Assembly: GCA_902573735.1 (NCBI GenBank)
Contig: CACGLH010000012.1
Span: 1 to 40,453 of the forward strand
Reading direction: 5' to 3'
DNA length: 40,453 nt
DNA from: an uncultured Alphaproteobacteria bacterium
GTDB taxonomy: Bacteria > Pseudomonadota > Alphaproteobacteria > Rhodobacterales > Rhodobacteraceae
Of this stretch, positions 24,459 through 40,424 are shown piece after piece. Each line of letters opens with the position of its first letter. The stretch's first letter is position 1. Both the position numbers and the translations under genes were made by a program. The notes under the pieces are model-generated. The model saw nothing but the letters and a program-made list of their open reading frames with translations, did not search any database and was not told where the DNA came from.

Positions 24459-24500
24459 ATTTAATTGAAAAATATCAATTACAATTAAGAAAGTTTTAAA

Positions 24501-25001: not shown

Positions 25002-27242
25002 TTATTTCTGAATTGTATTGAACATATTATTTTTTGGAAAATTTTTAGGTGCTATTTTTCCTGATTGCGCCCTTTTCCCTAGCCAATTTTCAAAATTGTT
25101 CTCAACTTTTTTTCTACCTGATTTATCAAACCATGCAAGACCTAACTCTAATTCAAAACTTGTAATATCAGAAAGAGTTGCATCTTTAAATTTTTGCAAC
25201 CTTACCCCTTTACCTCTATTAAGAAGAGGTAATTCTTCTATTTTAAAAATAAGAAGTTTACGATTTGTACCAATTGAAGCAATTGCATCTCCCTCAATAT
25301 TTTTCAAGCAATTTGCAAAGACACCTGTTTTTAGATTGATTATTTTTTTCCCAGATCTTGTTTGCGCAAGCATGTCCTCGTGTTTTATAATAAAACCGTC
25401 TCCTACATTGGATGATACAATTGCACATAAATCTGAATTAAAAATTAAAACATTTACAATTTCTGTCTGATTGGGTAAATCTGTTAATAATCTTATTGGT
25501 TCTCCATTAGTGCGTCCACTAGGAAGTAAATTTACTAATAGTGTGTAAATAAGTCCGTTAGTTCCAAAAATCAAAAGTTTATCAGAGGTTTTTGCTTTGA
25601 TCAAAAATCGTTCATTATCTCCTTCTCTATATTTGATTTCCTCAGGATTAGTTATTTTTCCTTTAACAAATTTTATCCAACCTAATTGTGAAATAACAAC
25701 TGTAACTTCCTCATCCTCAATAACATCAGGAATTTGAATATTTTCAAATATTTCTTTTTCTTCAATTAAGGTTTTTCGGTTAAAAGTTTTGTCAGAACTT
25801 AATTTAAGTTTAAGTAATTCTAGTTCTTTAGATAATTTTTTCCATTGGCTTTTTTCATCTTCTAAAAGCACTTCTAAATTAAGACGCTCTTTCAAAAGTA
25901 AATCTTTTTCTTCTTCAAGTTGAAATTGTTCTAATTTCCTAAGTGACCTAAGCCTCATATTTAGAATTGCCTCTGCTTGAATTTCAGATAGATCAAATTC
26001 TTTTTGAAGATCAGATTTTGGTTTCTCATTGAACCTAATTATATTTATAACCCTATCGATATTTAAATAAGTTACTAAAAAACCTTCAATTAAATGCAAC
26101 CTTGTATCAATATTTTTCAATCTGTATTTGGATCGACGAATTAGAATGTTTCTGCCATGGTTAATATAGTTTTGTAATAAATCTTTCAGACTTGATACTC
26201 TTGGCATTTTACCATCTTGTAAAACATTCATATTTAATGAAAATCTATTTTCTAAATCAGTTTTTTTAAATAAATGTTCCATAAGTATCTCTGGAGGAAT
26301 GTTTTTGGATTTTGGTTCAAGAACTAACCTTATATCTTCAGCACTTTCATCTCTTAAATCAGACAAAAGATTTAATTTTTTTTCATTGATTAATTCAGCT
26401 AATTTTTCTACTAATTTTGACTTTTGTATTCCATATGGTATTTCTGTGACTACTATTTGCCATCTACCTCTAGTTAAAAATTCTTGTTCAAATTTAGCTC
26501 GAATTCTAAAACTACCTTTTCCCAAAGTATAATTTTCTAAAATAGTTTTTTTTGAATCAACTAAAACTCCTCCAGTTGGAAAATCAGGACCTTTAATTAT
26601 TTCTAAAAGAGACTCTTGATCTATTTTAGAATTTTGAATTAACTTTATTGAAGCATCTAATATTTCTTTAATATTATGGGGAGGTATACTTGTTGCCATT
26701 CCTACAGCAATCCCGTAGGCACCATTTGCCAAAAGTTGGGGAAAAAAAGCAGGCAAAAATTCAGGCTCTTTTTCTGAACCGTCATAGTTATCTTTAAAAT
26801 CTACAGCTGACTCATCAAGACCATCTAACATTATCACTGAAATTTCACTTAACCGAGCCTCTGTATATCTTTGTGCTGCAGCATTGTCGCCATCAATATT
26901 ACCAAAATTACCTTGGCCTTCTATAAGTGGATATCTTGTTGTAAATGACTGAGCCATTCTTACCAGTGAATCATATATGGCCTTATCACCATGGGGGTGA
27001 TAATTACCCATAACTTCACCAACAATTTTTGCACATTTTCTAAATGAACCTGTAGGAACTAATTTTAATTGCCTCATTGCATATAATATTCTTCTATGCA
27101 CCGGCTTTAATCCGTCTCTGCTATCAGGCAGTGCCCTATCAGTTATAGTGGAAAGTGCATATGCCAGATATCTTTGACCAAGTGCAACGTCAAGATTTTC
27201 ATTATAAATTGTTGCTTTATTTGTATCTTCTTTATTTGCCAT
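25002..27242 (-). CDS. parC: DNA topoisomerase IV subunit A
   Basis: 746 aa. N-terminal breakage-reunion domain: LSTITDRALPDSRDGLKPVH, GNYHPHGDKAIYDSLVRMAQ, and catalytic Tyr126 in AAAQRYTEAR. The C-terminal beta-pinwheel domain is shorter than in GyrA and lacks a clear GyrA box, supporting ParC over GyrA. It decatenates daughter chromosomes with ParE. In the quinolone pocket, Lys87 takes the place of E. coli Ser80 and Asp91 that of Glu84. It converges with nusB (49 bases between stops) and diverges from the SDR gene (49 bases), where promoters for both must fit. Confidence 0.93.
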   Translation of the reverse strand: MANKEDTNKATIYNENLDVALGQRYLAYALSTITDRALPDSRDGLKPVHRRILYAMRQLKLVPTGSFRKCAKIVGEVMGNYHPHGDKAIYDSLVRMAQSFTTRYPLIEGQGNFGNIDGDNAAAQRYTEARLSEISVIMLDGLDESAVDFKDNYDGSEKEPEFLPAFFPQLLANGAYGIAVGMATSIPPHNIKEILDASIKLIQNSKIDQESLLEIIKGPDFPTGGVLVDSKKTILENYTLGKGSFRIRAKFEQEFLTRGRWQIVVTEIPYGIQKSKLVEKLAELINEKKLNLLSDLRDESAEDIRLVLEPKSKNIPPEILMEHLFKKTDLENRFSLNMNVLQDGKMPRVSSLKDLLQNYINHGRNILIRRSKYRLKNIDTRLHLIEGFLVTYLNIDRVINIIRFNEKPKSDLQKEFDLSEIQAEAILNMRLRSLRKLEQFQLEEEKDLLLKERLNLEVLLEDEKSQWKKLSKELELLKLKLSSDKTFNRKTLIEEKEIFENIQIPDVIEDEEVTVVISQLGWIKFVKGKITNPEEIKYREGDNERFLIKAKTSDKLLIFGTNGLIYTLLVNLLPSGRTNGEPIRLLTDLPNQTEIVNVLIFNSDLCAIVSSNVGDGFIIKHEDMLAQTRSGKKIINLKTGVFANCLKNIEGDAIASIGTNRKLLIFKIEELPLLNRGKGVRLQKFKDATLSDITSFELELGLAWFDKSGRKKVENNFENWLGKRAQSGKIAPKNFPKNNMFNTIQK

Positions 27243-27291
27243 TAATAATCTATCATTTTAATTTTATACTTTTAGGTAAAAGGTTAAAAAA

Positions 27292-28128
27292 ATGGAACCA
27301 AAAAATATTCTAATAACTGGTTGTTCAAGCGGAATTGGTAAGAATGCTGCTATTACACTTCATAACAAAGGTTGGAGAGTATTTGCAACCTGTAGATCTA
27401 AAAATGATTGTAAATTTTTTAAAAAATTGGGAATTGAAAGTTTTGAACTGGATCTACAAAGTGAAGAATCAATAAATAATGCTGTAAAATTAATCCAAAA
27501 AAATACTAAATCTCAACTAGATGCTCTTTATAATAATGGGGCATATGCAATACCAGGTGCAATCCAGGATATGCCAAGGGATGCTTTAAGAGAAATCTTT
27601 GAAGTAAATGTATTTGGCCAAATTGATCTTATTAATAAATGTATTCCGTTAATGATGAGTTCGGAATCCCCAAAAATAATAAATTGTTCTTCTGTTTTGG
27701 GTTTCATATCTTTACCTTACAGAGGCGTTTATTCAGCTACCAAATTTTCAATTGAAGCTTTAACAGATGCTATGAGAAGAGAAAATTATCATGAAAAATT
27801 AAAATTTGTTTTGATACAACCTGGGCCAATTAATACATCCATTAAACAAAAATCTCTTAAACATTTTGAGAAATGGCTAGATTGGAAAAATTCAATTCAT
27901 AAAAAGACTTATGAAAATAAAGTACTGAAAAGATTATATAATAATAATTCAAAAAATTCACTTAGCTTTTTCGAACTACACCCCGAGGCAGTTACAAAAA
28001 TACTGATTAAAATTTTGAATTCCAAAAGACCAAAAGAAAGATATAAAATAACAATCCCAACTCTAATTGCTAAGATTATGATTAAATTTTTACCAACTAA
28101 TGTACTAGACTGGATCTTTAAAATCTGA
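27292..28128 (+). CDS. Short-chain dehydrogenase/reductase, substrate unknown
   Basis: 278 aa classical SDR. The NAD(P)-binding loop TGCSSGIGK is at residues 9-17, followed by YNNGAYAIPG (NNAG variant) and the active-site triad with INCSSVLGF (Ser) and YSATKF (Tyr-x-x-x-Lys). The basic residues CRSKNDC after the second strand suggest NADP(H) preference. The C-terminal KITIPTLIAKIMIKFLPTNV region resembles SDRs acting on lipids or steroid-like substrates, but the function cannot be set. It is divergent from parC and precedes the small HIG1 gene by 35 bases. Confidence 0.85.
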   Translation: MEPKNILITGCSSGIGKNAAITLHNKGWRVFATCRSKNDCKFFKKLGIESFELDLQSEESINNAVKLIQKNTKSQLDALYNNGAYAIPGAIQDMPRDALREIFEVNVFGQIDLINKCIPLMMSSESPKIINCSSVLGFISLPYRGVYSATKFSIEALTDAMRRENYHEKLKFVLIQPGPINTSIKQKSLKHFEKWLDWKNSIHKKTYENKVLKRLYNNNSKNSLSFFELHPEAVTKILIKILNSKRPKERYKITIPTLIAKIMIKFLPTNVLDWIFKI

Positions 28129-28163
28129 TAATTCGTAATTCACTTTTAAATGATGAAAAATTA

Positions 28164-28364
28164 ATGTCTTCAATCTTCTTAATTTTAGCAATTGTTACGT
28201 GCCTTATTGTTTTAATCATTTTAATGTTTGGAATTGGATCTTTTGCCAAAGGCGGTAATTTTGGTAGAAAATACTCTAATAAATTAATGAGATGGCGAAT
28301 TATAGCTCAGGCAGTAGCAGTTTTATTAATTATTGTCTTTGTTTATTTTGAAAAAAAGGGGTAA
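28164..28364 (+). CDS. HIG1-domain twin-transmembrane protein
   Basis: 66 aa. Two hydrophobic helices (about 4-27 and 44-62) flank a short basic loop with KGGNFGRKYSNKLMRWRIIAQA, the alphaproteobacterial HIG1/twin-TM signature. Related mitochondrial HIG1 proteins associate with cytochrome oxidase; in bacteria the role is not established. The stop is 1 base before the adenosyltransferase ATG, so the pair is translationally linked. The same order (HIG1, adenosyltransferase, etfB, etfA, hbdA) recurs in alphaproteobacteria. Confidence 0.8.
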   Translation: MSSIFLILAIVTCLIVLIILMFGIGSFAKGGNFGRKYSNKLMRWRIIAQAVAVLLIIVFVYFEKKG

Positions 28365-28365
28365 A

Positions 28366-28932
28366 ATGGTAGTTCTTAATAAAATATATACTAAAAAAGG
28401 AGATGATGGAAATACAGAATTAGGAAATGGAGAAAGAGTAAAAAAATTTTCCAAAAGAGTTGAGGCCTATGGAACGGTAGATGAGCTAAACTCATTGATT
28501 GGTATAGTTACTTCTTTAGACATCGAAAGAGATTTCAAAAATTCACTTCTTAAAATACAAAATGATCTATTTGATATTGGTGCAGATCTTTGTATTCCTG
28601 AAACAGAAAAAAAATACAATTTTGTACCATTTAGATTTCCAGGTGATTATGTCATAAGTTTAGAAAAAGAAATAGACCAAATGAATTTATCTATCGAACC
28701 CATAAAATCGTTTGTTCTTCCTGGGGGTAGTAAAGTTTCTTCTCAATTACATCTATGTAGAACGACTTGTAGAAGAGCGGAAAGATATGTGGTTGAGTTA
28801 ACTGAAAAAGAAAAAGTTAATCCAGAAATACTAAAATATTTAAATCGTCTTTCTGACTGGTTTTTTGTAAGTGCTAGAAAATTTAACAATAATGGGAAAA
28901 ATGATATTCTTTGGATCCCTTCAAAAAATTAG
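28366..28932 (+). CDS. PduO-type cob(I)alamin adenosyltransferase
   Basis: 188 aa from ATG 28366, chosen because a purine-rich AGGGG lies just before it; an in-frame TTG 33 bases upstream would start inside the HIG1 gene. The ATP-binding N-terminus is IYTKKGDDGNTELGNGERV, followed by VEAYGTVDELNSLIG, and the corrinoid-facing helix is CRTTCRRAERYVV. The enzyme transfers the adenosyl group from ATP to cob(I)alamin, making the cofactor for methylmalonyl- and ethylmalonyl-CoA mutases. The location beside etf and hbd and the presence of mcd downstream fit that use. It is followed by a likely terminator. Confidence 0.92.
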   Translation: MVVLNKIYTKKGDDGNTELGNGERVKKFSKRVEAYGTVDELNSLIGIVTSLDIERDFKNSLLKIQNDLFDIGADLCIPETEKKYNFVPFRFPGDYVISLEKEIDQMNLSIEPIKSFVLPGGSKVSSQLHLCRTTCRRAERYVVELTEKEKVNPEILKYLNRLSDWFFVSARKFNNNGKNDILWIPSKN

Positions 28933-28944
28933 AAAATGTGCGAC

Positions 28945-28974
28945 AAAAATTAATATTTTATTAATTTTTTTTTT
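28945..28974 (+). terminator. Candidate intrinsic terminator after the adenosyltransferase
   Basis: An 11-bp perfect stem made only of A and T (28945-28955 pairing with 28959-28969), a 3-base loop and a run of T to 28974. It lies 12 bases after the stop. The lack of GC makes it weaker than a textbook terminator. If active, etfBA-hbdA need their own promoter in the following 40 bases. Confidence 0.45.
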
Positions 28975-29016
28975 ATGAATTAATATTATTTAGCTATTAA
29001 AAAAATGGGGAAATAT

Positions 29017-29778
29017 ATGAAAATTTTGGTTCCAGTCAAAAGGGTGATTGACTACAATGTTAAAGTAAGAGTTAAGTCCGACGGTAGTGGTGTAGATCTC
29101 TCTAATATAAAAATGTCAATGAATCCTTTTGACGAAATAGCTCTTGAAGAAGCTATAAGAATGAAAGAGGCAAATAAAGCGGAAGAAATTATAGCTATAT
29201 CGATTGGGCCTCAGCAATCTCAAGAAACTTTAAGGACAGCTTTAGCTATGGGTGCTGATAGAGCTATTCTAATTGTTGCTACTGATGACGTAAATAGCGA
29301 TATTGAGCCACTTGATGTAGCAAAAATTTTACATGCTGTAGTTGTTAAAGAGAACATTGATCTTGTGCTTTGTGGTAAGCAAGCCATTGACAACGACATG
29401 AATGCAACAGGTCAAATGCTTTCAGCACTTTTAGGATGCTCTCAAGCAACTTATGCATCAAAAATAGATTTGAATAATAACAAGGCCTCTGTGACCAGGG
29501 AAGTAGACGGTGGTTTACAAGTAATTGAAGTATCACTACCTGCAGTTATTTCTGTAGATTTAAGATTAAATGAACCAAGATACGCCAGTCTTCCTAATAT
29601 TATGAAAGCTAAGAGAAAACCTTTGGAAGAAAAAACACCCCAAGACCTTAATATTCAAATAAAGAATAGACTAGAGATTTTAGAAACAAAGGAACCACCC
29701 GAACGACCATCTGGAATTAAAGTTTCATCTGTTGACGAACTTTTAGATAAATTAAAAAATGAAGTAGGAGTAATTTAA
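29017..29778 (+). CDS. etfB: Electron transfer flavoprotein, beta subunit
   Basis: 253 aa starting [17 protein letters not shown] 29017 is preferred to ATG 29005 because GGGGAAA sits 4-10 bases before it and homologues begin at MKILV. The AMP-binding motif region is [23 protein letters not shown], and the ETF-beta signature [31 protein letters not shown] is intact. With EtfA it carries electrons from acyl-CoA dehydrogenases (such as the methylsuccinyl-CoA dehydrogenase encoded downstream) to ETF-quinone oxidoreductase. etfA starts 1 base after the stop. Confidence 0.96.
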
Positions 29779-29779
29779 A

Positions 29780-30709
29780 ATGTCAGTATTAGTAATCGCA
29801 GACATAGTAAGCAACGAGCTCTCAATTGATCTAACAGGAAAAACTGTAAATGCAGTAACGCATTTAGGAGAGGTAACAATTCTATGTGCATCTGATGATG
29901 CAAAAAATGCTTCAATTGAAGCATCAAAAATTAATGGAGTTAATAGTGTACTAAATGTAAGTGATCCTCTTTTTAAAAACGGTTTAGCTGAACCTATGTC
30001 GGCACTTATAGTCGAATTATCGAAGGATTTTGAATTTATAGTTTCTCCTGCCAGTGCTTTTGGGAAAAATATCTTACCTAGAGTTGCAGCCTTAATCGAT
30101 GTTATGGTTATTACAGATATTTCTAAAATCATTGACTCCAACACTTTTGAAAGACCTATTTATGCAGGAAATGCTATTCAAACTGTAAAAAGTACAGATA
30201 ATAAAAAAGTTATAAGTGTTAGAACAGCTAACTTTGAGACACCTGAGATGTCTAATAGTGCAAATATACTCAATACAAATTGCTCAGTAGTTGAAAATAA
30301 AATGTCAGTATGGGTAGAAGATAAAATAGTAGAAAATGATAGACCAGAACTTACTTCTGCAAAAATAGTAGTGTCAGGAGGAAGAGGAATAGGGAGTGAA
30401 GAAAATTTTGATATAATTGAGAAATTAGCAAGTAAACTTGGTGCAGCAGTAGGCGCATCTAGAGCTGCAGTAGATTCTGGGTTTGCTCCTAATGATTGGC
30501 AAGTAGGTCAAACTGGAAAAGTAGTTGCACCAGAACTTTATGTAGCAGTTGGAATTTCAGGGGCAATACAACATTTAGCAGGAATGAAAGATAGTAAAGT
30601 AATAGTAGCAATTAACAAAGATGAAGAAGCACCTATTTTTCAAGTTGCAGATTTTGGTTTAGTTGGCGATTTATTTAATGTTGTCCCAGAATTAACTAAT
30701 AAAATTTAA
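29780..30709 (+). CDS. etfA: Electron transfer flavoprotein, alpha subunit
   Basis: 309 aa, full length. The N-terminal ETF domain runs to about residue 185. The C-terminal FAD domain has VVSGGRGIG, GAAVGASRAAVDSG, WQVGQTGKVVAPELYVAVGI, SGAIQHLAGM and INKDEEAPIFQVADFGLVGD, all standard FAD contacts. It forms the FAD-containing half of the ETF heterodimer. The gene is coupled to etfB, and hbdA follows 14 bases later. Confidence 0.97.
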   Translation: MSVLVIADIVSNELSIDLTGKTVNAVTHLGEVTILCASDDAKNASIEASKINGVNSVLNVSDPLFKNGLAEPMSALIVELSKDFEFIVSPASAFGKNILPRVAALIDVMVITDISKIIDSNTFERPIYAGNAIQTVKSTDNKKVISVRTANFETPEMSNSANILNTNCSVVENKMSVWVEDKIVENDRPELTSAKIVVSGGRGIGSEENFDIIEKLASKLGAAVGASRAAVDSGFAPNDWQVGQTGKVVAPELYVAVGISGAIQHLAGMKDSKVIVAINKDEEAPIFQVADFGLVGDLFNVVPELTNKI

Positions 30710-30723
30710 TTAATATAACTTTT

Positions 30724-31605
30724 ATGTCAGATGATATTAAACTTATAGGAATAGTTGGAGCAGGGCAAATGGGGCTTGGTATTGCCCAAGTATTGGCGAC
30801 TTCAGGTTTTAACGTTTTGATTAATGATAGAGATCAAATAACCCTAAATAACGCTTCTAACATAATTAAAGATAATATAAATAAAGCAATTAACAGAGGT
30901 AGGTTAGAAAAAGATATTGGTTCGTATTCTATTGATAGAATAAAAACAAAAAATAACATTGCTCAACTTGGTGGGTGCGATTTAATTATTGAAGCAGCAA
31001 CAGAAAATGAAAAAATTAAACATGAAATATTTCAAAAGTTAGTCCCACATCTCCAACCTCATACTATTCTTACATCTAATACATCTTCAATTTCAATAAC
31101 AAGATTAGCAGCTAGAACTGATAGACCAGAAAAATTTATGGGTTGTCATTTTATGAAGCCTGCCCCAGTCATGCAACTAGTTGAATTAGTAAGAGGTATA
31201 GCTACAAGTGAGGAAACTATCGATTGTTTAAAAGGACTGGTTAAAAAAATTGGCAAAATTTCTACTAATTCTGAAGATTTTCCAGCCTTTATTGTTAATA
31301 GAATACTAATGCCGATGATTAACGAAGGAATTTATGCCCTTTATGAAGGTGTTGGAACTGTTGAAAGTATTGATAATTCTATGAGATTAGGAGCAAATCA
31401 TCCTATGGGACCCCTAGAACTTGCCGATTTTATTGGACTTGATACTTGTTTAGCTATTATGAACACATTACATGATGGATTGGCTGATACTAAATATCGC
31501 CCTTGCCCATTATTAGTGAAATATGTTGAAGCAGATTGGTTAGGAAGAAAAAATAAAATTGGATTTTACAATTATAAAGGTGAAAAACCAGTACCTACCA
31601 GATAA
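30724..31605 (+). CDS. hbdA: 3-hydroxybutyryl-CoA dehydrogenase
   Basis: 293 aa. The NAD-binding fold starts GIVGAGQMGLGIAQVLA, with the ADP-ribose acid in INDRD. Catalytic His lies in MGCHFMKPAPVMQLVELV (HFMK where most homologues have HFxN), the paired Glu in LVELV, and the conserved Asn in NHPMGPLELADFIGLD. It oxidises or reduces acetoacetyl-CoA/3-hydroxybutyryl-CoA, part of polyhydroxybutyrate turnover or the ethylmalonyl-CoA pathway. The context with etfAB is conserved. It converges on ptsH, 6 bases between stops. Confidence 0.92.
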   Translation: MSDDIKLIGIVGAGQMGLGIAQVLATSGFNVLINDRDQITLNNASNIIKDNINKAINRGRLEKDIGSYSIDRIKTKNNIAQLGGCDLIIEAATENEKIKHEIFQKLVPHLQPHTILTSNTSSISITRLAARTDRPEKFMGCHFMKPAPVMQLVELVRGIATSEETIDCLKGLVKKIGKISTNSEDFPAFIVNRILMPMINEGIYALYEGVGTVESIDNSMRLGANHPMGPLELADFIGLDTCLAIMNTLHDGLADTKYRPCPLLVKYVEADWLGRKNKIGFYNYKGEKPVPTR

Positions 31606-31611
31606 GTTGGA

Positions 31612-31884
31612 CTAAGAACCTTCACCAAAAAAACTATTAACCAAATTTATGAGTTTTTCTTCAAGTTCTTTTTCATCTTCGCCAGTTATTTGTATTGATA
31701 TAATTGACCCTTGCTCAGCTGCAAGAGTAAGTAATCCCATAATCGAATTTCCAGGAACTACCAAATTTCCCCTAGTAACCTCTACTTTAGATTTAAAGCT
31801 GTCAACAATTGATGCAAATTTTGCTGAGGCCCGAGCATGCAAACCTCTTTTGTTAATAATTTTAAGTTTTACTTCCCTTGTAAT
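31612..31884 (-). CDS. ptsH: HPr phosphocarrier protein (probable ATT start)
   Basis: An in-frame TTG at 31842 would begin at HARAS and delete the first strand. The frame upstream encodes ITREVKLKIINKRGLHARAS, the standard HPr N-terminus, and reaches a stop at 31899 with no ATG, GTG or TTG before the TTG. ATT at 31884-31882 has AAGGA (31898-31894) 9 bases upstream and yields 90 aa, typical for HPr. His16 in GLHARAS is the phosphocarrier site; Ser47 in PGNSIMGLL is the HprK target. It is last in hprK-rapZ-ptsH, where alphaproteobacteria usually also have an EIIA gene. It probably regulates rather than transports sugars. Confidence 0.88.
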   Translation of the reverse strand: MTREVKLKIINKRGLHARASAKFASIVDSFKSKVEVTRGNLVVPGNSIMGLLTLAAEQGSIISIQITGEDEKELEEKLINLVNSFFGEGS

Positions 31885-31914
31885 ATTACCATATCCTTAA
31901 ATTATAAATAAAAA

Positions 31915-32769
31915 TCAACTAATTATATCTCTATGTTTTAATAGAATATTATAACCATCTTTTTTTAATTTCTGCATTATTTTGTTTACTAATACTACAG
32001 AACGGTGTTTACCACCAGTACAGCCAAAACCAACTGAAAATTGGTTTTTTCCTTCTTTTTGAACTTGTGGAATATAAAAATTTAAAAGGGATAATACTTT
32101 AGGAAAAAAGGAGTTAAACTCACTAGAATTACTTACAAAATCTTGTATTAGTTGAGAATTGCCATCTAAATCTCTTAATTCTGTATTCCAATATGGGTTT
32201 TTCAAAAATCTACAGTCAAATATTATGTCAATATTTCTAGGTAATCCTTTTTTATAGGAAAAAGACTGTAATAGTATACTGAACTTTTCTATTTCTGAAA
32301 TGGACATATAATTCAACAACTCTTGTCTGAGATCCGTAGGACTATAATCCGTAGTATCAATAACAAAATCAGAAAACTCTTTAATAGGATTTAAATATTC
32401 CATTTCTTCAACTAATGCTTCAGATAAAGATTTACTCCCAGACAAAGGATGAATTCTACGAGTTTCATTAAATCTTCCGAGGAGTTTATTTAAATCACAA
32501 TCTAAAAAAATTACCTTAATTTCAATTTTGTCAAATTTTGATACTAATTTTCTTAAACTTTTTGGTGAAAATTCTCTTGTTCTTATATCAACACCAAGTG
32601 CTAAATTTTTGTTTCTATTTTTAGCTAAAACTAAATTTTCGATCATAGATATTGGTATGTTATCTATAGACTCATAACCTATATCTTCAAATACGTTTAT
32701 TGCTGTGGTTCTTCCAGCTCCAGATGAGCCTGTAATTATAATCAATTTATTATAATGATCAGTTACCAA
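31915..32769 (-). CDS. rapZ: RapZ-family nucleotide-binding protein
   Basis: 284 aa. The P-loop is GSSGAGRTT (residues 14-22), with Arg in place of the usual Lys, a variant I recall from other alphaproteobacterial homologues. The second nucleotide motif is IKVIFLDCDLNKLLGRFNETRRIHPL; the C-terminal domain holds GFGCTGGKHRSV and NIDIIFDCRFLKNP. In E. coli RapZ guides RNase E to the sRNA GlmZ and so controls glucosamine-6-phosphate synthase; its role in alphaproteobacteria is less known. TTG is taken as start because GAGG lies 7 bases before it. It lies 9 bases after hprK and about 30 before ptsH. Confidence 0.9.
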   Translation of the reverse strand: MVTDHYNKLIIITGSSGAGRTTAINVFEDIGYESIDNIPISMIENLVLAKNRNKNLALGVDIRTREFSPKSLRKLVSKFDKIEIKVIFLDCDLNKLLGRFNETRRIHPLSGSKSLSEALVEEMEYLNPIKEFSDFVIDTTDYSPTDLRQELLNYMSISEIEKFSILLQSFSYKKGLPRNIDIIFDCRFLKNPYWNTELRDLDGNSQLIQDFVSNSSEFNSFFPKVLSLLNFYIPQVQKEGKNQFSVGFGCTGGKHRSVVLVNKIMQKLKKDGYNILLKHRDIIS

Positions 32770-32778
32770 GAGTTTTCC

Positions 32779-33222
32779 TCAAATTATATTTGTTTTTACT
32801 CCATATTTTAAACTCAAAAAAAGAGAGCTTTCATTATTATAATTAGGATTAAATTCTATCATTTTTATTTTTTTTCCAAAGCAGTTTTTTTGTTTTTTAT
32901 AAGGTAATCTCTTTAATTCGATTTCAGTCATCTTTACAAAACAAAATAATTCAGCTGAATTTTTTATAGGAACTTCAATTAATCCAATACCTCTTGCTTC
33001 AATTAAGTTAGGAGTACTATCAGGTTTTGTTAAAATTATTTTATTTTTTTTTAATTCTAACTGAGTTTGATCATCACTGATTAATTTTGCTCCAAATGAA
33101 ATTAGTTTAATTGCTAAGTTACTTTTTCCAGAACCAGATTTACCAAAAATAACAATTCCTTTACCGTTTATATAAACACTTGTGGCATGCATTATTTTGC
33201 AATTATTAGTAGATACTATCAT
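32779..33222 (-). CDS. hprK: HPr kinase/phosphorylase, short form
   Basis: 147 aa, the C-terminal catalytic domain only, as is usual in alphaproteobacteria (Gram-positive HprK is about 310 aa). The Walker A loop GKSGSGKS spans residues 27-34; LISDDQT gives the Asp pair near the active site; ARGIGLIEVP is the HprK family motif. It phosphorylates HPr on Ser47. The annotated ATG has AGG only one base upstream; an internal ATG 10 codons later (MHATSVYI, where homologues tend to start) is an alternative. The promoter lies in the 257-base divergent gap with pckA. Confidence 0.9.
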   Translation of the reverse strand: MIVSTNNCKIMHATSVYINGKGIVIFGKSGSGKSNLAIKLISFGAKLISDDQTQLELKKNKIILTKPDSTPNLIEARGIGLIEVPIKNSAELFCFVKMTEIELKRLPYKKQKNCFGKKIKMIEFNPNYNNESSLFLSLKYGVKTNII

Positions 33223-33350
33223 CCTAAATATTGACTCAATATATTTTTCATTATTGAATATTATATCATTTCAAAATCAAAAAAACATTTTTTACATAGA
33301 AGCATATATTAAATCGAAAGATTAAAAATCAGGCAAAAAAATTATTATTG

Positions 33351-33376
33351 TAAAGATTTTATATAATAAATCTTTA
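33351..33376. repeat. Perfect inverted repeat between hprK and pckA
   Basis: Arms TAAAGATTT (33351-33359) and AAATCTTTA (33368-33376) pair perfectly around an 8-base spacer, TATATAAT. It lies 104 bases before the pckA start and 128 from hprK, inside the shared 257-base control region. It could be an operator or a transcript hairpin. The rest of this gap shows no further clear signals. Confidence 0.55.
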
Positions 33377-33479
33377 AAAACTGGGGAACAATTATCAAAT
33401 CTAATATCAGGCATTTAAATATGTTTTAAGATTTATAACCGATCCCATATCTAAAGAATGTGAGGAATGAAGTATAATT

Positions 33480-34673
33480 ATGGCGAATATTAGTATAAAC
33501 ACAAATCCAACTGGACGCAGTCCAGATAAAAAGTTTTTCTTTGGAAGACAAACAAAAAGTTTAGACTTAACTAGACCAAAATATAATAAAATTGGCAAAG
33601 AAAAAGATTATAGAGATTTTTTAAAATTACTCAAAGACCAGAAATATTTATCACCTACTAATTTTGAAACAGTTGGGACTAACTTTACATTACATACTAA
33701 TGATGAACGCCATAAGCAATTTGTTTGGAATATGTTTAAAGTTACAGCTGAGGATCAGGTAGGTGATTGGACTATTTATCATAATACTGAGATCAAAATG
33801 GAACCAAAAATATATATACACTTGGACGAAAAAGTGTTGCTGATAGGTGGTACTACATTTCTTGGTGAAATAAAGAAAGGTGTTTTTGGCATTGTAAGTT
33901 TTGAATTACCTAAATATAAAATACTGCCAATGCATTGTGGGGCATTTACATATGGTGGTACTACAAATTTAATGTTTGGTTTGAGTGGTACTGGGAAAAC
34001 AACCCTAAGTAGCGATCCAGATTATAAACTTATAAGTGATGATGAAGTAGCATGGACAAGTATGGGAATAAGAATGATAGAAACTGGATGCTATGCCAAA
34101 AGTGAGGGACTTACTCCAGACACTCATAGAACAATTTTTGATGCTGTAGCTACTGCAAAGAAAAGGAATACTCTAGTAGAAGAAAATCCAGAAGCATTAA
34201 ATGCTAGATTAAGTTATCCAATAACTTGTGTAGAAAATGCATATCATAAACGAAGTAACTTTGATCACGCAGATAATATATTTTTTTTAACAATGGATGC
34301 AGAAGGCATTTTTCCTGCGATCAGTAGAATTAGCGGAAGTACAGTAAGACGTTTCTTTGAAACAGGTTATACTAGTCAAATGCCTGGAACAGAAGCCGGA
34401 TCTGATGAAATTAAGAGAACATTTTCACCATGTTATGGATCTCCGTTTATGCCCAGAAAAGTAAAAGAATACAGTGACATGTTAATGAAAAAAATTAAAA
34501 AACATAATTGCAATGTGTTTTTGGTAAATACAGGCATGGATAAGTCTGGAAAAAGATTTGATTTGGAATTTACTCGTAATACAATTAAACAGGCTATATT
34601 AACAGAGTATCCTTTAGAAGATAATAGTGAGGAAGTTTTAAAAAAATTAGAAAATATGATAGATCTAAATTAA
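33480..34673 (+). CDS. pckA: Compact ATP-type phosphoenolpyruvate carboxykinase
   Basis: 397 aa against about 540 in E. coli. The catalytic set is nevertheless present: TGRSP Arg13 (E. coli Arg65), Lys132/133 in GEIKKG, His152 in PMHCG, P-loop GLSGTGKTT with Lys173 (Lys254), Asp187/188 in ISDDE, and Arg243 in ARLSYPI (Arg333). Register differences from E. coli are near constant (80-81, then 90), so the shortening comes from about 52 missing N-terminal residues, about 28 lost before the metal site, and a shorter C-terminus. It decarboxylates and phosphorylates oxaloacetate for gluconeogenesis. A stop 12 bases upstream in frame rules out an N-terminal extension. GAGG lies 14 bases before the ATG, rather far. 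Confidence 0.85.
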   Translation: MANISINTNPTGRSPDKKFFFGRQTKSLDLTRPKYNKIGKEKDYRDFLKLLKDQKYLSPTNFETVGTNFTLHTNDERHKQFVWNMFKVTAEDQVGDWTIYHNTEIKMEPKIYIHLDEKVLLIGGTTFLGEIKKGVFGIVSFELPKYKILPMHCGAFTYGGTTNLMFGLSGTGKTTLSSDPDYKLISDDEVAWTSMGIRMIETGCYAKSEGLTPDTHRTIFDAVATAKKRNTLVEENPEALNARLSYPITCVENAYHKRSNFDHADNIFFLTMDAEGIFPAISRISGSTVRRFFETGYTSQMPGTEAGSDEIKRTFSPCYGSPFMPRKVKEYSDMLMKKIKKHNCNVFLVNTGMDKSGKRFDLEFTRNTIKQAILTEYPLEDNSEEVLKKLENMIDLN

Positions 34674-34723
34674 AGGTCTTTATAACTTTTATTCTGAAAA
34701 TAAGTTTTAAATAAATTTTATGT

Positions 34724-34752
34724 ATAGGAATGTTCTGCTAATCCTATTTTTA
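34724..34752 (+). terminator. Candidate terminator after pckA
   Basis: ATAGGA (34724-34729) pairs with TCCTAT (34742-34747), followed by T-rich sequence to 34752. The loop is 12 bases. It lies about 50 bases after the pckA stop, before the DUF429 gene. Confidence 0.4.
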
Positions 34753-34773
34753 TAAAAAAGTTTGGGGATAATC

Positions 34774-35466
34774 ATGTTCGCTGTTGGTATTGATGGATGT
34801 AGTAATGGCTGGTTAGCAAGTTTTTCTAAACCTTTTGATTTTAAAAAATGTTATTGCCTTTATTCAAAAAATCTTGAAGAACTAATACTTAAGTTACCTA
34901 AGAAAACATTTATTATTGCAGATATTCCAATAGGCCTTGATAAAAAAAAACACATAAGAGAGTGTGACGTTAAAGCTAGGGCTTTTATTGGACCAAGAAG
35001 ACATTCAATTTTTGCTCCTCCATGCAAAAAAGCATCTTTAGAAAGTAATTATGAATCAGCAAATATATTGAACAAGAAAATAACTAGCCATGGATTATCA
35101 AAACAAACATGGATGATAAATGATAAAATAAAAGAAACCCAAAAGCTTATTGAGAAAGGATATTCTTTAAAAGAAGGACACCCAGAATGTAGCTTTCGTG
35201 AACTAAAAGGCGATTTTTTAAGATTTGGAAAAAGTGGGCTTTTAGGTTTTTTTGAAAGGTTGGAATTACTCACTAATCTTGGGTTTACTCCGACATCATT
35301 GAGCAACCAATTGTCAGAGGAAATAAAAGCAAAACCTGACGATTTACTTGACTCCTTAGTATTATGTTGGAGTGCATCTAGACATATACATAAAAAAGGT
35401 ATTTATTTAGGCTTAAAAAATAGTTCTAAAACATTTAATGAAAGTGAAAGTTTTATTCATGTTTAG
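34774..35466 (+). CDS. DUF429 family protein, predicted RNase H-fold
   Basis: 230 aa from ATG 34774, preceded by GGGGA at optimal distance; an in-frame TTG 12 bases earlier overlaps that ribosome-binding site and is rejected. The N-terminus MFAVGIDGCSNGW matches the DUF429 motif VGIDGCxxGW, with further conserved acidic positions at IADIPIGLD and EGHPECSFREL, and DDLLDSLVLCWSA at the end. The family is predicted to have an RNase H-like fold, but its function is not established. It lies between pckA and mcd with no obvious link to either. Confidence 0.78.
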   Translation: MFAVGIDGCSNGWLASFSKPFDFKKCYCLYSKNLEELILKLPKKTFIIADIPIGLDKKKHIRECDVKARAFIGPRRHSIFAPPCKKASLESNYESANILNKKITSHGLSKQTWMINDKIKETQKLIEKGYSLKEGHPECSFRELKGDFLRFGKSGLLGFFERLELLTNLGFTPTSLSNQLSEEIKAKPDDLLDSLVLCWSASRHIHKKGIYLGLKNSSKTFNESESFIHV

Positions 35467-35511
35467 TATATAAACATAAGTAGATAGATTATAATTACGT
35501 AAATAATTAAT

Positions 35512-37194
35512 ATGTTAGATCAAATAAAAAATAATATAAGTAATTCTATTTCCTCAAAATATAATGAAATTCTTCTTGATTTAGAAAAGATTTTTGAAAA
35601 AATAAAAAAAGAACTCATTTCAAAAAAAAAGGAAAACCTAGATAATCTGAAAGTTTGGGAAATAGAAAATCAACATTTGATCCATGGATTTGCATGGATT
35701 GCGACTTATATAGAATCATTAAGACAAATTAATAAGTGGGCTCTAAAATTAGCTAAAAATAAAAACATAAGTGAATTTGAGCATCTAATTTTAGATATTG
35801 CTTTTATAGAATATGTTAGCCAAATCCTGAATGGTATACCGATGTCACAAACTGAATTTATTAAAGTTAATGACTATGAATGTATAATACCAAATGATTT
35901 ATATCCTTTAAATAAAAATTTAATAGAGAATTTTAGTATCAATGAGATAGCTAAATTAAAAGAGCGCTTAGTTAAAATTGCTGTCAAAAAAGAAACTACA
36001 ACTACCCTAGAGAATACTCAACTAGATCTTGAATTCGAACAAATAAGAGAACAATTTCAAAAGTTTAATGCTATAAATGTAAATAATGACTCAAACCAAT
36101 GGCACTTAAAAGACGAACTGATTCCTCAGAATGTAATCGATGAATTGTCAAAATTAGGGGTTTTTGGTTTAACCATTACAGAAAAATACGGCGGACTAGG
36201 TTTGAATAAACTTGCAATGTGTGTTGTATCTGAAGAGTTAGCAAGAGGCTATATTGGTGTTGGTAGTTTGGCAACCAGAACAGAAATAGCAAGTGAATTA
36301 ATTATTAATGATGGGACAAAAGCCCAAAAAGATCTTTGGTTACCTAAAATTGCTAATGGAGAAACCATTCCAGCTGCATGTTTTACTGAACCTGATTGTG
36401 GATCAGATTTAGGTTCAATAAAAACTAAAGCAAAAAAAGATGCTGATAATTATTTTTTATCAGGAAACAAAACTTGGATAACTCATGCATCCAGAGCAAA
36501 TTTATTTATTATTCTTGCACGTACTAATCCGGATATATCACAAAAAAATAAAGGTCTATCTATTTTTCTTGTTCCCAAAACTCCGGAAACCAAAAAAGAA
36601 TTTTTTCCTGATAAAAATATATCTGGAACTGAAATAAAAGTTTTGGGGTATAGAGGAATGAAAGAATTTGAATTAAGATTTGAAAATCTAGAAGTAGAAT
36701 GTCTTGGCCTTCTTGGAGAAGTCGAAAATAATGGATTTTCACAATTAATGAAAACCTTTGAAAGTGCCAGAATACAAACTGCTGCAAGATCTATTGGTGT
36801 CGCACAGAACGCATTAGACCTAGCATTATCTTATTCTCTAAACAGAAAACAATTTGGTAGGTCAATTATTAATTTTCAAAGAGTTTACAACAAAATAGCA
36901 ATGATGATTGTTGAAATTGCTATGGGAAGACAACTAACTTATTTTGCTGCAAAAAATAAGGATCTTGGGCATAGATGTGATTTAGAAGCTGGAATGGCTA
37001 AGTTATTATGTGCAAAAATAGCATGGTCATCTGCTGATAACTCTTTACAAATTCATGGTGGGAATGGCTATGCATTAGAATATGAAATAAGTAGAATACT
37101 TTGTGATGCCAGAGTATTGAATATATTTGAAGGATCAGCTGAAATTCAGGCACAAGTTATAGCCAATCGTATTATGGGAAAAATTCCAAATTAA
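35512..37194 (+). CDS. mcd: (2S)-methylsuccinyl-CoA dehydrogenase
   Basis: 560 aa acyl-CoA dehydrogenase with an N-terminal extension of about 170 residues not found in ordinary members. Within it, HGFAWIATYIESLRQINKWA (58-77) and GIPMSQTEFIKV match the methylsuccinyl-CoA dehydrogenase group. The core has FTEPDCGSDLGSI, GNKTWITHASRANL, YRGMKEFELRFENLEV, SARIQTAARSIGVAQNALDL, QIHGGNGYALEYEISR and ILNIFEGSAEIQAQVIA (catalytic Glu region). It oxidises methylsuccinyl-CoA to mesaconyl-CoA, passing electrons to ETF; this step is specific to the ethylmalonyl-CoA pathway for acetyl-CoA assimilation. The assignment rests on remembered family motifs. No clear ribosome-binding site precedes the ATG. Confidence 0.87.
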   Translation: MLDQIKNNISNSISSKYNEILLDLEKIFEKIKKELISKKKENLDNLKVWEIENQHLIHGFAWIATYIESLRQINKWALKLAKNKNISEFEHLILDIAFIEYVSQILNGIPMSQTEFIKVNDYECIIPNDLYPLNKNLIENFSINEIAKLKERLVKIAVKKETTTTLENTQLDLEFEQIREQFQKFNAINVNNDSNQWHLKDELIPQNVIDELSKLGVFGLTITEKYGGLGLNKLAMCVVSEELARGYIGVGSLATRTEIASELIINDGTKAQKDLWLPKIANGETIPAACFTEPDCGSDLGSIKTKAKKDADNYFLSGNKTWITHASRANLFIILARTNPDISQKNKGLSIFLVPKTPETKKEFFPDKNISGTEIKVLGYRGMKEFELRFENLEVECLGLLGEVENNGFSQLMKTFESARIQTAARSIGVAQNALDLALSYSLNRKQFGRSIINFQRVYNKIAMMIVEIAMGRQLTYFAAKNKDLGHRCDLEAGMAKLLCAKIAWSSADNSLQIHGGNGYALEYEISRILCDARVLNIFEGSAEIQAQVIANRIMGKIPN

Positions 37195-37213
37195 TTTTTT
37201 ATTAAAAATTTTT
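37193..37213 (+). terminator. Candidate AT-only terminator after mcd
   Basis: AATTTTT (37193-37199) pairs with AAAAATT (37204-37210) and is followed by more T. The stem overlaps the mcd stop codon. It is weak, since it contains no GC pair. Confidence 0.3.
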
Positions 37214-37560
37214 AAAATACTTTGTGAAAATTTCTACTAGTAAACTACCACGGATTAATCAATTTGTTAGATCAAATTATTATAACCCCTAGGATTCAGA
37301 TTTTATCAGTTTTTATTTTTTAAATAAAAATGTATTGACCCATCCATTTTTTTGGGTTTTTAGAATACTAATATTTTTTTACATCTATATAAAATATACT
37401 CCAATAAATAATATAATATCTGAACATTATATGACTTGGTACCATTATTAAGATTGATTTATACTTAGTCATGATTTAACTAAAAATTAAGTTTAAAATA
37501 CAAATTCTCAATCAATAATTTACAAAGAATCTATCCAAAATTAATAATGAAAGTTTTATA
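37195..37560. other. 366-base non-coding region upstream of the GcvT-like gene
   Basis: Stops occur in all frames. It contains an inverted repeat AATTTG-TTAGAT-CAAATT (37261-37278), a perfect 9-bp AT hairpin (37310-37318 with 37322-37330), and ACCCA/TGGGT arms (37338-37342, 37353-37357) followed by four T. TTGACC at 37335 resembles a -35 box but its best -10 (TAGAAT, 37361) is 20 bases away. This is the longest non-coding stretch in the window and may be a regulated leader. Confidence 0.5.
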
Positions 37561-38727
37561 ATGTCCTTGAAAAAAAATTATGGAGATTCACATGATTTAT
37601 TTGTTGTAAGTTCAAAACGTTTTGACATAAGCCCATACATTTCCAAATATTATGATAAAAAAATTGTTTTTGGAATTTCAGCAAATAGATTTTATCCTTT
37701 ATCTAACGGAAAAGATCCAATTGAATCTTATTGGAACTTAAGAAAAAAAGTGGTTTTATATGATGTGCCTGAGAAGCCACTAGAAATAAGTGGTTCTGAC
37801 TCATTAATATTATTAGAAAAAGTTTTCTCTAGGACCATATCCGATCTAAAAATTAACCGTGCAAGGTATGCAATTGCCTGTAATTATGATGGTGGAATTA
37901 TAATGGACGGAATATTGATAAGACTATCATCAAATAAATTCTGGTATATTCATGCTGATGGTAATTTCGAGACATGGTTATTAGCTCATAGTGAAGGTTT
38001 AAAAGTAAATATAAGAGACCCAAAATCTTGGGCAATTCAAATACAAGGACCCAGTGCCTTAAAAGTTTTGAAAAATTGTGTTACCAGTATTGATATAGAA
38101 AAATTCAAATATTTTCATTGTCGTAACCTAAATTTTGGTGGTCAAAATTTTTTAGTCTCTAGAACTGGATGGACAGGTGAACTTGGTTTTGAAATTTATA
38201 GCAATGGTCCTCAAGATGATCATCTTCATTTATGGGATTATATAATGGAAAGAGGTAAAGATTTTAACATAAAAACGTCAAGTTTAGATTCAATGGGCAT
38301 AAGAAGAATAGAAGCTGGAATTCTCGACTATGGTACTGATATGAATCGTTTTAATAATCCTTTTGAGGTAGGATTAGGTAAATTTATTGATCTTTCAAAA
38401 GGTTTTTTTATTGGGAAAGATAAACTATTAACAGTTAACAAAAAAACCAAACTTTTTGGTATAATTTGTCAAAACATAATTCCCTTTTCTGGATTAAAAA
38501 TTTTTTACAAAAATAAAATAGTTGGTCAAACTACTGTAGGGGCCTTTTCTCCATACTTTGGTAGAGGTATCGGATATGCATTATTTAATTACAATAACAA
38601 CTGGATAGAAAAAAAATTATATATTAAAGATCATGAAAATAATTTACATGACTGTCAAATAGTAACCTTACCCTTTTTTGATGAGTCCAAAAAAATACCA
38701 AAATTAGTAAATGCAAACTTATCTTAA
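37561..38727 (+). CDS. GcvT-family folate-dependent methyltransferase (DmdA-like)
   Basis: 388 aa. The GcvT fold is seen in EISGSDSLILLEKVFSRTISDL, DGGIIMDGILIRL, IQIQGPSALKVL, VSRTGWTGELGFEIY, GIRRIEAGILDYGTDMN and NNPFEVGLGKFIDL. The sequence around the second motif (xD-G/P-I/V-L) is closer to the DMSP demethylase DmdA and allied demethylases than to the glycine-cleavage T protein, while GWTGE is T-protein-like where SAR11 DmdA has GWSKQ. No gcvH or gcvP is nearby. It most likely moves a one-carbon group from an N- or S-methyl compound to tetrahydrofolate; the substrate cannot be named. It is a single-gene unit behind a long leader. Confidence 0.75.
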   Translation: MSLKKNYGDSHDLFVVSSKRFDISPYISKYYDKKIVFGISANRFYPLSNGKDPIESYWNLRKKVVLYDVPEKPLEISGSDSLILLEKVFSRTISDLKINRARYAIACNYDGGIIMDGILIRLSSNKFWYIHADGNFETWLLAHSEGLKVNIRDPKSWAIQIQGPSALKVLKNCVTSIDIEKFKYFHCRNLNFGGQNFLVSRTGWTGELGFEIYSNGPQDDHLHLWDYIMERGKDFNIKTSSLDSMGIRRIEAGILDYGTDMNRFNNPFEVGLGKFIDLSKGFFIGKDKLLTVNKKTKLFGIICQNIIPFSGLKIFYKNKIVGQTTVGAFSPYFGRGIGYALFNYNNNWIEKKLYIKDHENNLHDCQIVTLPFFDESKKIPKLVNANLS

Positions 38728-38808
38728 GTTTATAGTTCAATTGTTTTTTTTTCTTTTATAATTAAACTGACATTGGTATTAACATTTTATAAACTGTCTG
38801 GAGTTAAA

Positions 38809-39324
38809 ATGATTTTTAATTTAAAAAATTCTTATTTTCTTTTTTCTTTCATATTTTATTTATTAGTTTCTTGTTTTTATCTTATGGCTGAAACAAGAAC
38901 TACTATATATGAAAAAGATCACTGGAAAGTCTTTGCCTATAAGTATGATGATGGGGGACGTGCATGCATTGCAAGTGTATCAAATAGTGAAATGGAGCTT
39001 CAGATTTATAGATCTAAAGATTTTTATGAATTAGCAACTTTTTATGAGGATTTTACAAACAAAAAATATGATTTTTTTAAATTTCAAATTGATAATAATG
39101 ATCCATGGATAGATGATAGTCCCGAATATGATAACGGTTGGTTAATGAGTAATATCTCTAATTATACTGAGCAAGCTGCAAGCGAAATTGAAAAAGAAAT
39201 GAGAGCAGGAAGGAAATTTTATCATCTGGATAAAAATGATACTATAGCATGGTTTTCTTTAATTGGATCAAATAAAGCTTTTGATGCCTTTGATAAATGT
39301 GTTTTAAAAAATGGACTGTACTAA
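38809..39324 (+). CDS. Exported protein, IalB-like
   Basis: 171 aa from ATG 38809, which has GGAG 6-9 bases before it; an upstream in-frame ATG (38773) would put polar residues ahead of the signal. The N-terminus is a signal peptide (about 1-32, long hydrophobic core, LVSC near residue 23 could also be a lipobox). The mature part has HWKVFAYKYDDGGRACIASV and ends LIGSNKAFDAFDKCVL, with two cysteines that could form a disulfide. This outline resembles periplasmic proteins of the invasion-associated-locus-B type in alphaproteobacteria, but the match is weak and the function unknown. Confidence 0.62.
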   Translation: MIFNLKNSYFLFSFIFYLLVSCFYLMAETRTTIYEKDHWKVFAYKYDDGGRACIASVSNSEMELQIYRSKDFYELATFYEDFTNKKYDFFKFQIDNNDPWIDDSPEYDNGWLMSNISNYTEQAASEIEKEMRAGRKFYHLDKNDTIAWFSLIGSNKAFDAFDKCVLKNGLY

Positions 39325-39425
39325 ATTTAAAAAAAAAACTTAAAATATAAGACTTCAATAAATGGTGTTTAGCTGTTAACCTTATAAATATTATTATTAA
39401 ATTTAAAAAAATTCTGGAGACCAAG

Positions 39426-39827
39426 ATTAAGTATTTAATATATGTATCTACACCGTTTGGTTTTAATAAAAAAAATATAAATAGTATTTTAGAAATTTCT
39501 AACTTAAACAATAAAAAAAATAGCATTACTGGATGCTTAATTTATCGATCTGACCTATATCTCCAATATCTTGAAGGTCCATCTAAAGAATTAGAAAATA
39601 CTTATAATAAAATTTTAAATGATAAAAGACATTCAGACATAAAAAAATTGTCTGAAAACAATTCTAAAAGAAGATTATTTGCCAGCTGGGCTATGAGAGG
39701 CGATCCGTTGATTACATCAATGTGGAATAACAAAGATGTAATGGAAGGTACTGTAAAAAAATTAAATCCAGCAGAAGCCTTTAAAATATTCGAAACGGTT
39801 TCTCGAGAAATAGACCAATTTAATTAA
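39426..39827 (+). CDS. BLUF-domain blue-light photoreceptor, apparent ATT start
   Basis: 133 aa stand-alone BLUF protein. The FAD-site residues are all there: Tyr6 in YLIYVS, Asn28/29 in ISNLNNKKNSITG, Gln47 in LYLQYLEGP, and Trp88 and Met90 in FASWAM; DKRHSD is also typical. Their spacing matches Slr1694-type BLUF proteins within one residue. No ATG, GTG or TTG exists in frame before the domain (open back to a stop at 39348). ATT at 39426 has TGGAG ending 6 bases upstream and starts exactly where BLUF proteins start; CTG at 39414 is the other choice. The C-terminal 40 residues form a short helical cap with no output domain. It likely signals through a protein partner. Confidence 0.85.
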   Translation: MKYLIYVSTPFGFNKKNINSILEISNLNNKKNSITGCLIYRSDLYLQYLEGPSKELENTYNKILNDKRHSDIKKLSENNSKRRLFASWAMRGDPLITSMWNNKDVMEGTVKKLNPAEAFKIFETVSREIDQFN

Positions 39828-39872
39828 AAGTTATCACAAAAATTTTTAAATTTAAAAAAAGTATCTATAAAA

Positions 39873-40424
39873 TTATATCTTAGGACACGGAGCATTCTTA
39901 TTTCTAGAATCGCAAAGGAAAACTTTTGAAACTAACTTTGACCAATCTTGTATTTGGGAATTAGTAGGCTCATATCTCCATGCTTTTTGTATTAAATACA
40001 AAGCATCTTTTCCAGAAATAACCTTAATCATTGTATATTCTGGCTTTTTTGTGTTTGGATTTTTACCACAAATTGTCATGAAATAATTATACGAATATCC
40101 ATATTCTTCCCCACTAGAAATTTCCAAGCCTCTTCCTTCATCACAAAAATCTACTATAATACCAATAAAACGATCTACGAAATTTTTGAGGGTACTTTTT
40201 GTATTATAATTATATAAAACTTGCACAGTCATCATCCTTGACCAATCTTTTATCGTTTCCCCATTAGGTATCCATTCCTGTGTATATATCTCATTACTAC
40301 TATCAGTGAAACCAAGTTTATATCCATTAGGAGGTGAAAAAAGTAAGTTTTCTCCATATAGTTCATTAGAATGAAAAACATTTGGAAATAAAATGCTAAA
40401 AATAATTAATATTGTTTTAGCCAT
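39873..40424 (-). CDS. Exported protein of unknown function
   Basis: 183 aa. A signal peptide covers about residues 1-19 (MAKTILIIFSILFPNVFHSN). The mature chain begins with GENLLFSPPNGYKLGF and contains DWSRMMTVQVLYN, four cysteines (in FCDEG, TICG, LCDSR and APCPK), and YTMIKVISGKDALYLIQKAWR. The pattern resembles a conserved but unnamed periplasmic family in proteobacteria. I cannot assign a function. It converges with the BLUF gene (45 bases apart). Only 29 bases remain to the window end, so its promoter is not fully visible. Confidence 0.75.
   Translation of the reverse strand: MAKTILIIFSILFPNVFHSNELYGENLLFSPPNGYKLGFTDSSNEIYTQEWIPNGETIKDWSRMMTVQVLYNYNTKSTLKNFVDRFIGIIVDFCDEGRGLEISSGEEYGYSYNYFMTICGKNPNTKKPEYTMIKVISGKDALYLIQKAWRYEPTNSQIQDWSKLVSKVFLCDSRNKNAPCPKI

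Follow-up and report, generated by a model that had tools for sequence, protein, structure and literature searches.

Background

BLUF domains adopt a ferredoxin-like fold supplemented by two helices, bind flavin and respond to blue light with a red shift of 10-15 nm. Short BLUF proteins, such as Tll0078 and Slr1694 of the PixD type, consist of a single domain with a short helical tail and act by binding a partner. Separately, starts other than ATG, GTG and TTG have been described for a few bacterial genes. According to excerpts of PMC5472188, infC starts with ATT in E. coli and with ATC in Streptomyces and is autoregulated by IF3; these are AUN starts with a mispaired third base, placed behind a Shine-Dalgarno (SD) sequence. 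The same excerpts describe sigR of Streptomyces (GTC), a sensory/regulatory gene repressed by IF3, whose non-canonical start is conserved in the genus, was missed by start prediction and was shown by experiment. The regulators cvfC1 (AUU) and ccpN (AUA) of Staphylococcus aureus have conserved AUU/AUA starts behind strong, extended SDs, mapped by Ribo-Ret, and in S. aureus reporters AUU/AUA starts gave about 10% of AUG, and up to 30% in one medium (excerpts of PMC13009471). IF3 demands Watson-Crick pairing at the first and second codon bases and tolerates some non-Watson-Crick pairing at the third, weak third-base pairs being excluded (excerpts of PMC10158994). BLUF domains and AUU starts are each of a known kind; our search of the open-licence literature found neither a BLUF gene with a non-canonical start nor a genus in which such starts have accumulated.

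The BLUF gene described here would resemble infC of E. coli and Streptomyces in having, behind an SD, an AUN codon whose third base is mispaired. Unlike infC, it encodes a predicted photoreceptor, for which there is little ground to assume infC-like autoregulation, and its start is assigned from sequence. It would be similar to cvfC1 and ccpN in the conserved AUU/AUA type of start, although these have extended SDs and starts mapped by Ribo-Ret, whereas the BLUF gene has GGAG and a sequence comparison only. Similarity to sigR would lie in a non-canonical start of a sensory or regulatory gene; the sigR start differs in that its first base is G and its third base is mispaired, as well as in its experimental proof.

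The BLUF gene and its product

The window (the whole stretch of 40,453 nucleotides that was analysed, from an uncultured bacterium of the Rhodobacteraceae) contains at positions 39426-39827 of the forward strand an open frame of 133 codons terminated by TAA, the candidate start codon being AUU at 39426-39428. Hereafter, G000 is the assembly from which the window was taken, and other G numbers denote comparison genomes. In the Pfam search, the protein matched PF04940 (BLUF) over profile positions 3-91 of 92 (E value, 4.4e-27; 94.5 bits against a cut-off of 25) and no family besides this one. The residues Tyr6, Asn29, Gln47, Trp88 and Met90, which we take to be those of the BLUF photocycle, are all present; the original prediction of a complete BLUF domain with these five residues, recognizable by PF04940, was thus borne out. 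The codon score of the frame was +36.7, versus -117 and -174 for the other two forward frames, and a chance origin of the frame is excluded. Sequence matches in the PDB were Tll0078 (1x0p; E value, 1.3e-11), Slr1694 (2hfn; E value, 3.5e-11), AppA and photoactivated adenylyl cyclases. An AlphaFold2 model built from 3 sequences had a mean pLDDT of 45.8, too low for the model to be relied on.

From these data we infer that the product is a short single-domain BLUF blue-light receptor, in which photoreception would be coupled to a separate partner protein; blue-light sensing with a remote partner is suggested by the domain. It shares with the PixD-type short proteins (Tll0078, Slr1694) the Pfam domain, the PDB sequence matches and the five photocycle residues. 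It differs from AppA and PixD in the lack of a canonical start and in the Tyr-Asn spacing, which is 23 here and presumably 24, one more, in AppA and PixD, the remaining spacings being equal.

Orthologues (54-100% identity) were present in 9 of the 12 genus genomes, G000 included, and a second BLUF paralogue (38-42% identical) was also present in 9 of the 12, both numbers being counted from the lists of protein matches. In the family, 32 of 198 genomes had BLUF matches at E values up to 1e-10. Seven loci from other genera were inspected: five, with a readable N-terminus near ATG or TTG, look ordinary, one was in the wrong frame and one had a long open leader. A search of viral contigs for a relative found none. 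In the G005 orthologue, the Trp before Ala-Met was lost (STSAMRG) and LERP replaced LEGP, so that its photochemistry may differ, judging from these residues.

Start region of the BLUF gene

Upstream of the gene, an in-frame stop lies at 39348, and the first in-frame ATG, GTG or TTG past this stop is the TTG at 39648, that is, codon 75. The same holds for G001 and G010, and thus the gene has no canonical start, as originally predicted. A putative SD, GGAG, is located at 39416-39419 with a six-base spacer to ATT 39426, and the arrangement TGGAG-N6-ATT is found in G000, G001, G010 and G011. The start region reads ATT CTG GAG ACC AAG ATT AAG in G000 and G001 (99% identical), ATT CTG GAG ATT AAG ATT AAG in G010 (92% identical) and AAT ATG GAG TTT GAA ATT AAA in G011 (66% identical); across these four species TGGAG is unchanged, but the spacer of six bases varies (ACCAAG, ATTAAG, TTTGAA).

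The orthologues of G006, G008 and G009 begin with ATG ATC AAG, where G000 has AAG ATT AAG, and are therefore extended by a single ATG codon. Those of G002 and G005 have a common eight-codon leader, their ATG lying eight codons before GTA AAG, and that of G011 has ATG four codons upstream with a four-codon leader unrelated to the former. Since the position of ATG varies in this way, the start has moved within the genus, and the comparison of homologous N-termini revealed no conserved extension that would place the start well upstream.

The stretch from the upstream gene to the start (the leader, 39325-39411) differs between G000 and G010 in 18 of its 83 aligned columns (39325-39404), a divergence of 22% as compared with 5% in the gene (20 of 399 bases). 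In G010, the A-run at 39405-39411 has one additional base. Because of this length difference, no start upstream of the A-run can be common to both species, and, together with the difference in divergence, it places the start close to the domain. The candidates left in the permitted interval were ATT 39411, CTG 39414 and ATT 39426, and an SD was found only before ATT 39426. The spacing of six bases was the commonest among SD-bearing ORFs (15 of 72) in a sample of 341 ORFs, in which an SD motif occurred in 72; a control stretch yielded 21 of 341. A search for the 3' end of the 16S rRNA found none in G000 and only a partial 16S in 1 of 12 genus genomes, and the anti-SD sequence is therefore assumed. 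In the predicted fold GGAG was partly paired, the stability of the fold being no better than that of shuffles (z = 0.23), and a promoter and terminator search at the locus gave nothing above chance.

On this evidence, translation probably starts at ATT 39426, which is favoured over CTG 39414, not decisively. The original prediction had regarded ATT behind TGGAG as the only sensible start. ATT with GGAG six bases away is indeed the best candidate, but CTG 39414 had not been weighed and is a live rival. With a start at CTG 39414-39416, which is in frame and inside the permitted interval, the protein would begin Leu/fMet-Glu-Thr-Lys-Ile-Lys-Tyr, and CTGGAG would be the start and second codons instead of containing a ribosome-binding site. 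The CTG is aligned with the ATG of G011 (ATG GAG TTT GAA ATT); as G011 has both an ATG at the CTG position and GGAG-N6-ATT, this genome cannot separate the two readings. On the other hand, an SD-like motif is absent upstream of the CTG, and the codons between CTG and ATT vary freely (ACC AAG, ATT AAG, TTT GAA). In G006, an in-frame TAA lies between the aligned TCTGGA (CTG GAT) and the ATG of the gene, and TCTGGA is therefore not a start there. Furthermore, in the presence of IF3 a first-base mispair is less tolerated than a third-base mispair (excerpts of PMC10158994). Initiation at the CTG is thus unlikely, yet it has to be kept in consideration.

Improbable, in our estimation, is a pseudogene that has lost its ATG and has not yet decayed. 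Canonical starts are missing from three closely related species (20 differences between G000 and G010), so that there was little time for decay, and the need for the gene could be relaxed by the paralogue that the genome also contains. Against this, stops and frameshifts are absent from all three copies, 18 of 83 leader columns changed as compared with 20 of 399 bases of the frame, and the five BLUF-site residues are kept. G000-G010 is the only comparison after the loss with enough changes: 8 of its 20 changes were synonymous, a synonymous excess with P = 0.027, and the dN/dS of 0.34 is taken as weak constraint estimated from few changes. The other dN/dS values were 0.095-0.10 against G006, G008 and G009, and 0.18 against G011.

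Another non-canonical codon in the interval, or a novel mode of initiation, is very improbable. ATT 39411-39413 is in frame and ends the A-run, and in nusB (see below) the candidate ATT likewise lacks a good SD; however, an SD is absent upstream of 39411, whereas ATT 39426 has GGAG at the commonest spacing. A sequencing or assembly error that masks an ATG can be dismissed, even with a probable error elsewhere in the assembly (rpoD, split here and whole in G001), because G001 carries the same ATT, and so does G010, whose protein is only 92% identical; one and the same error would have had to occur twice.

As for G001, its BLUF gene has 1 difference from that of G000 in 399 bases. Identity between the two genomes was about 88% at 17-22 kb of the window and, over 26000-40280, rose from 94-97% at 26-27 kb to 99-100%. 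This rise resembles a recent exchange between two lineages, by which the allele may be shared; G001 therefore verifies the bases, yet does not count as a separate case in evolutionary terms.

Other genes without a canonical start

The ATT start was presented as an oddity of one gene, which does not hold: infC, HPr, nusB and a class-IV aminotransferase of the genus also have no canonical start, nusB and HPr being in the same window. When the count covered all in-frame codons between the upstream stop and a conserved N-terminal block, ATG, GTG and TTG were absent before this block at 6 of 7 loci for infC, 7 of 9 for HPr, 4 of 10 for nusB and 8 of 9 for the aminotransferase. These four genes seem to begin at AUU, AUA or AUC. 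In infC, GGAG is located 8 bases before ATA (G000, G001, G010 and G011) or ATC (G002 and G005). In the aminotransferase, ATA precedes the conserved Ser-Ile-Thr-His at all nine loci; the motif ahead of this ATA is AGGA at a distance of 7 bases in G000, G001, G006, G008, G009 and G011, and GGAG at 8 bases in G002 and G005.

In the window, nusB (24489-24953, forward strand) has no ATG, GTG or TTG before codon 28, and TIGR01951 matched from codon 14. The candidate ATT at 24501 is common to G000, G001, G010, G006, G008 and G009, and no clear SD was found before it in these six genomes. In HPr (ptsH; 31612-31896, reverse strand) the first canonical start is codon 19, inside GLHAR, and the candidate ATT is codon 5 of the open frame; this ATT, followed by ACA or ACT and placed behind AAGG, is common to G000, G001, G010, G006 and G008. 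The ATG of G004 is two codons away from the ATT of the others and is not a clean one-codon swap. As a control, ATG, GTG or TTG was sought 5-18 codons before GLHAR in other genera (29 loci read of 38 matched outside G000). A canonical start was found at 28 of the 29 loci versus 1 of 9 in the genus (Fisher's test, P = 1.6e-6), a value to be read with the facts that the genus members are not independent and that the other genera are GC-rich (0.48-0.72). According to the NCBIfam profiles, the nusB, HPr and G005 pyrH proteins begin ahead of the first canonical codon.

Some further frames were noted. The pyrH gene of G005 (L103 7130-7870, minus strand) has no canonical start before codon 24, the profile starts from codon 11, and AGGAG is found six bases before ATC; in G000, pyrH has an in-frame TTG upstream and is a weak case. 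In the FecCD permease (L058 10947-11994, minus strand), the ATG of four orthologues is replaced in G000 by ATT, also a weak case as it concerns one genome only. An aroE-like frame (L059 1873-2473, minus strand; named by eye) has its N-terminal part missing and is apparently frameshifted.

Genome-wide comparison and IF3

SD-anchored ATT, ATA or ATC codons were counted in 22 of 377 ORFs of G000, 13 of 273 of G005, 10 of 131 of the control G053 and 5 of 130 of the control G056; G000 had no genome-wide excess over the GC-matched control G053. Thus, a changed code for the whole genome was rejected, and a handful of genes is concerned. A codon-usage scan (440 kb of G000) for ORFs with coding signal ahead of their first canonical start yielded strong cases in 12 of 377 ORFs of G000, 3 of 273 of G005, none of 130 of G056 and 3 of 131 of G053. 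By eye, seven were kept in G000 (BLUF, infC, nusB, HPr, aminotransferase, FecCD permease and sugar ABC ATPase), one in G005 (pyrH) and none of the three in G053; the others, which resembled leaders, antisense frames or pieces of frameshifted genes, were dropped. For 7 of 377 in G000 versus 0 of 261 in the controls, P was 0.045 under post hoc selection. An earlier, looser scan was swamped by antisense frames and was discarded. Among 93 reciprocal-best pairs of G000 and G005, infC and pyrH stood out on inspection.

IF3 matched a solved IF3 with an E value of 1.3e-60, and the stretches MDYGK and RFRGREMAHQ, which we assume to be important for the factor, are kept; from its sequence IF3 looks ordinary. 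A search of 400 kb for the initiator tRNA yielded three tRNA genes, none of them initiator.

Possible initiation mechanism and its meaning

Under the preferred reading, AUU 39426 would be selected by GGAG six bases upstream and by initiator fMet-tRNA. AUU would mispair at the third codon base, and because IF3 disfavours such pairing the BLUF protein would probably be made at a low, IF3-sensitive level, while the sister species would use ATG one, four or eight codons upstream instead. The similar situation in HPr, infC, nusB and the aminotransferase speaks for the AUU reading. The exclusion of weak third-base pairs by IF3 (excerpts of PMC10158994) counts against it, as do the missing genome-wide excess of ATT, ATA and ATC and the partial pairing of GGAG in the predicted fold. 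If the AUU start is true, this is a photoreceptor under start-codon-limited translation.

Tentatively, the genus as a whole may have drifted to AUU, AUA and AUC starts, a lost ATG being replaced by an AUN codon behind an SD and kept for the age of the genus (BLUF, HPr, nusB, aminotransferase, and perhaps FecCD and pyrH); we consider such a drift possible but rather doubtful. Since IF3 is apparently ordinary, the change would have to be in the IF3 level, the initiator tRNA or the tolerance of low expression. If drift did occur, the BLUF sensor and the housekeeping genes would form one IF3-sensitive expression class. The genus lends itself to studying how much the choice of start codons by IF3 can drift while IF3 itself stays unchanged. 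Several conserved genes of the genus, two of them tied to essential processes (nusB and HPr), appear unable to begin at ATG, GTG or TTG, and start prediction restricted to these codons could drop or truncate such genes.

Gene neighbourhood and the second BLUF gene

Upstream of the BLUF gene lies a gene for a GcvT/DmdA-like protein (37561-38727, forward strand; NF009133, 172.5 bits, below the cut-off of 410), with a homologue upstream at 5 of the 9 orthologous loci. The downstream gene (39873-40424, reverse strand) encodes a 183-aa protein that had no Pfam match at E values up to 1, with a homologue downstream at 6 of the 9. In the comparison over these nine loci, neither neighbour was an evident effector. 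Elsewhere in the window, rpoD (18434-20474) is broken up into overlapping frames of 448 and 235 aa, and G001 has a single frame of 678 codons; the split in G000 is probably an assembly error.

The second BLUF gene of the source assembly (G000:C10:49819-50196) is 42% identical and has a TTG start. In G000 and G005, the second BLUF gene (L041 9802-10206; L042 7926-8327) is preceded by a pterin-binding methyltransferase-like gene and a large ferredoxin-domain gene, the latter resembling a corrinoid-protein activator (names assigned by eye). Both BLUF genes are thus located near one-carbon genes.
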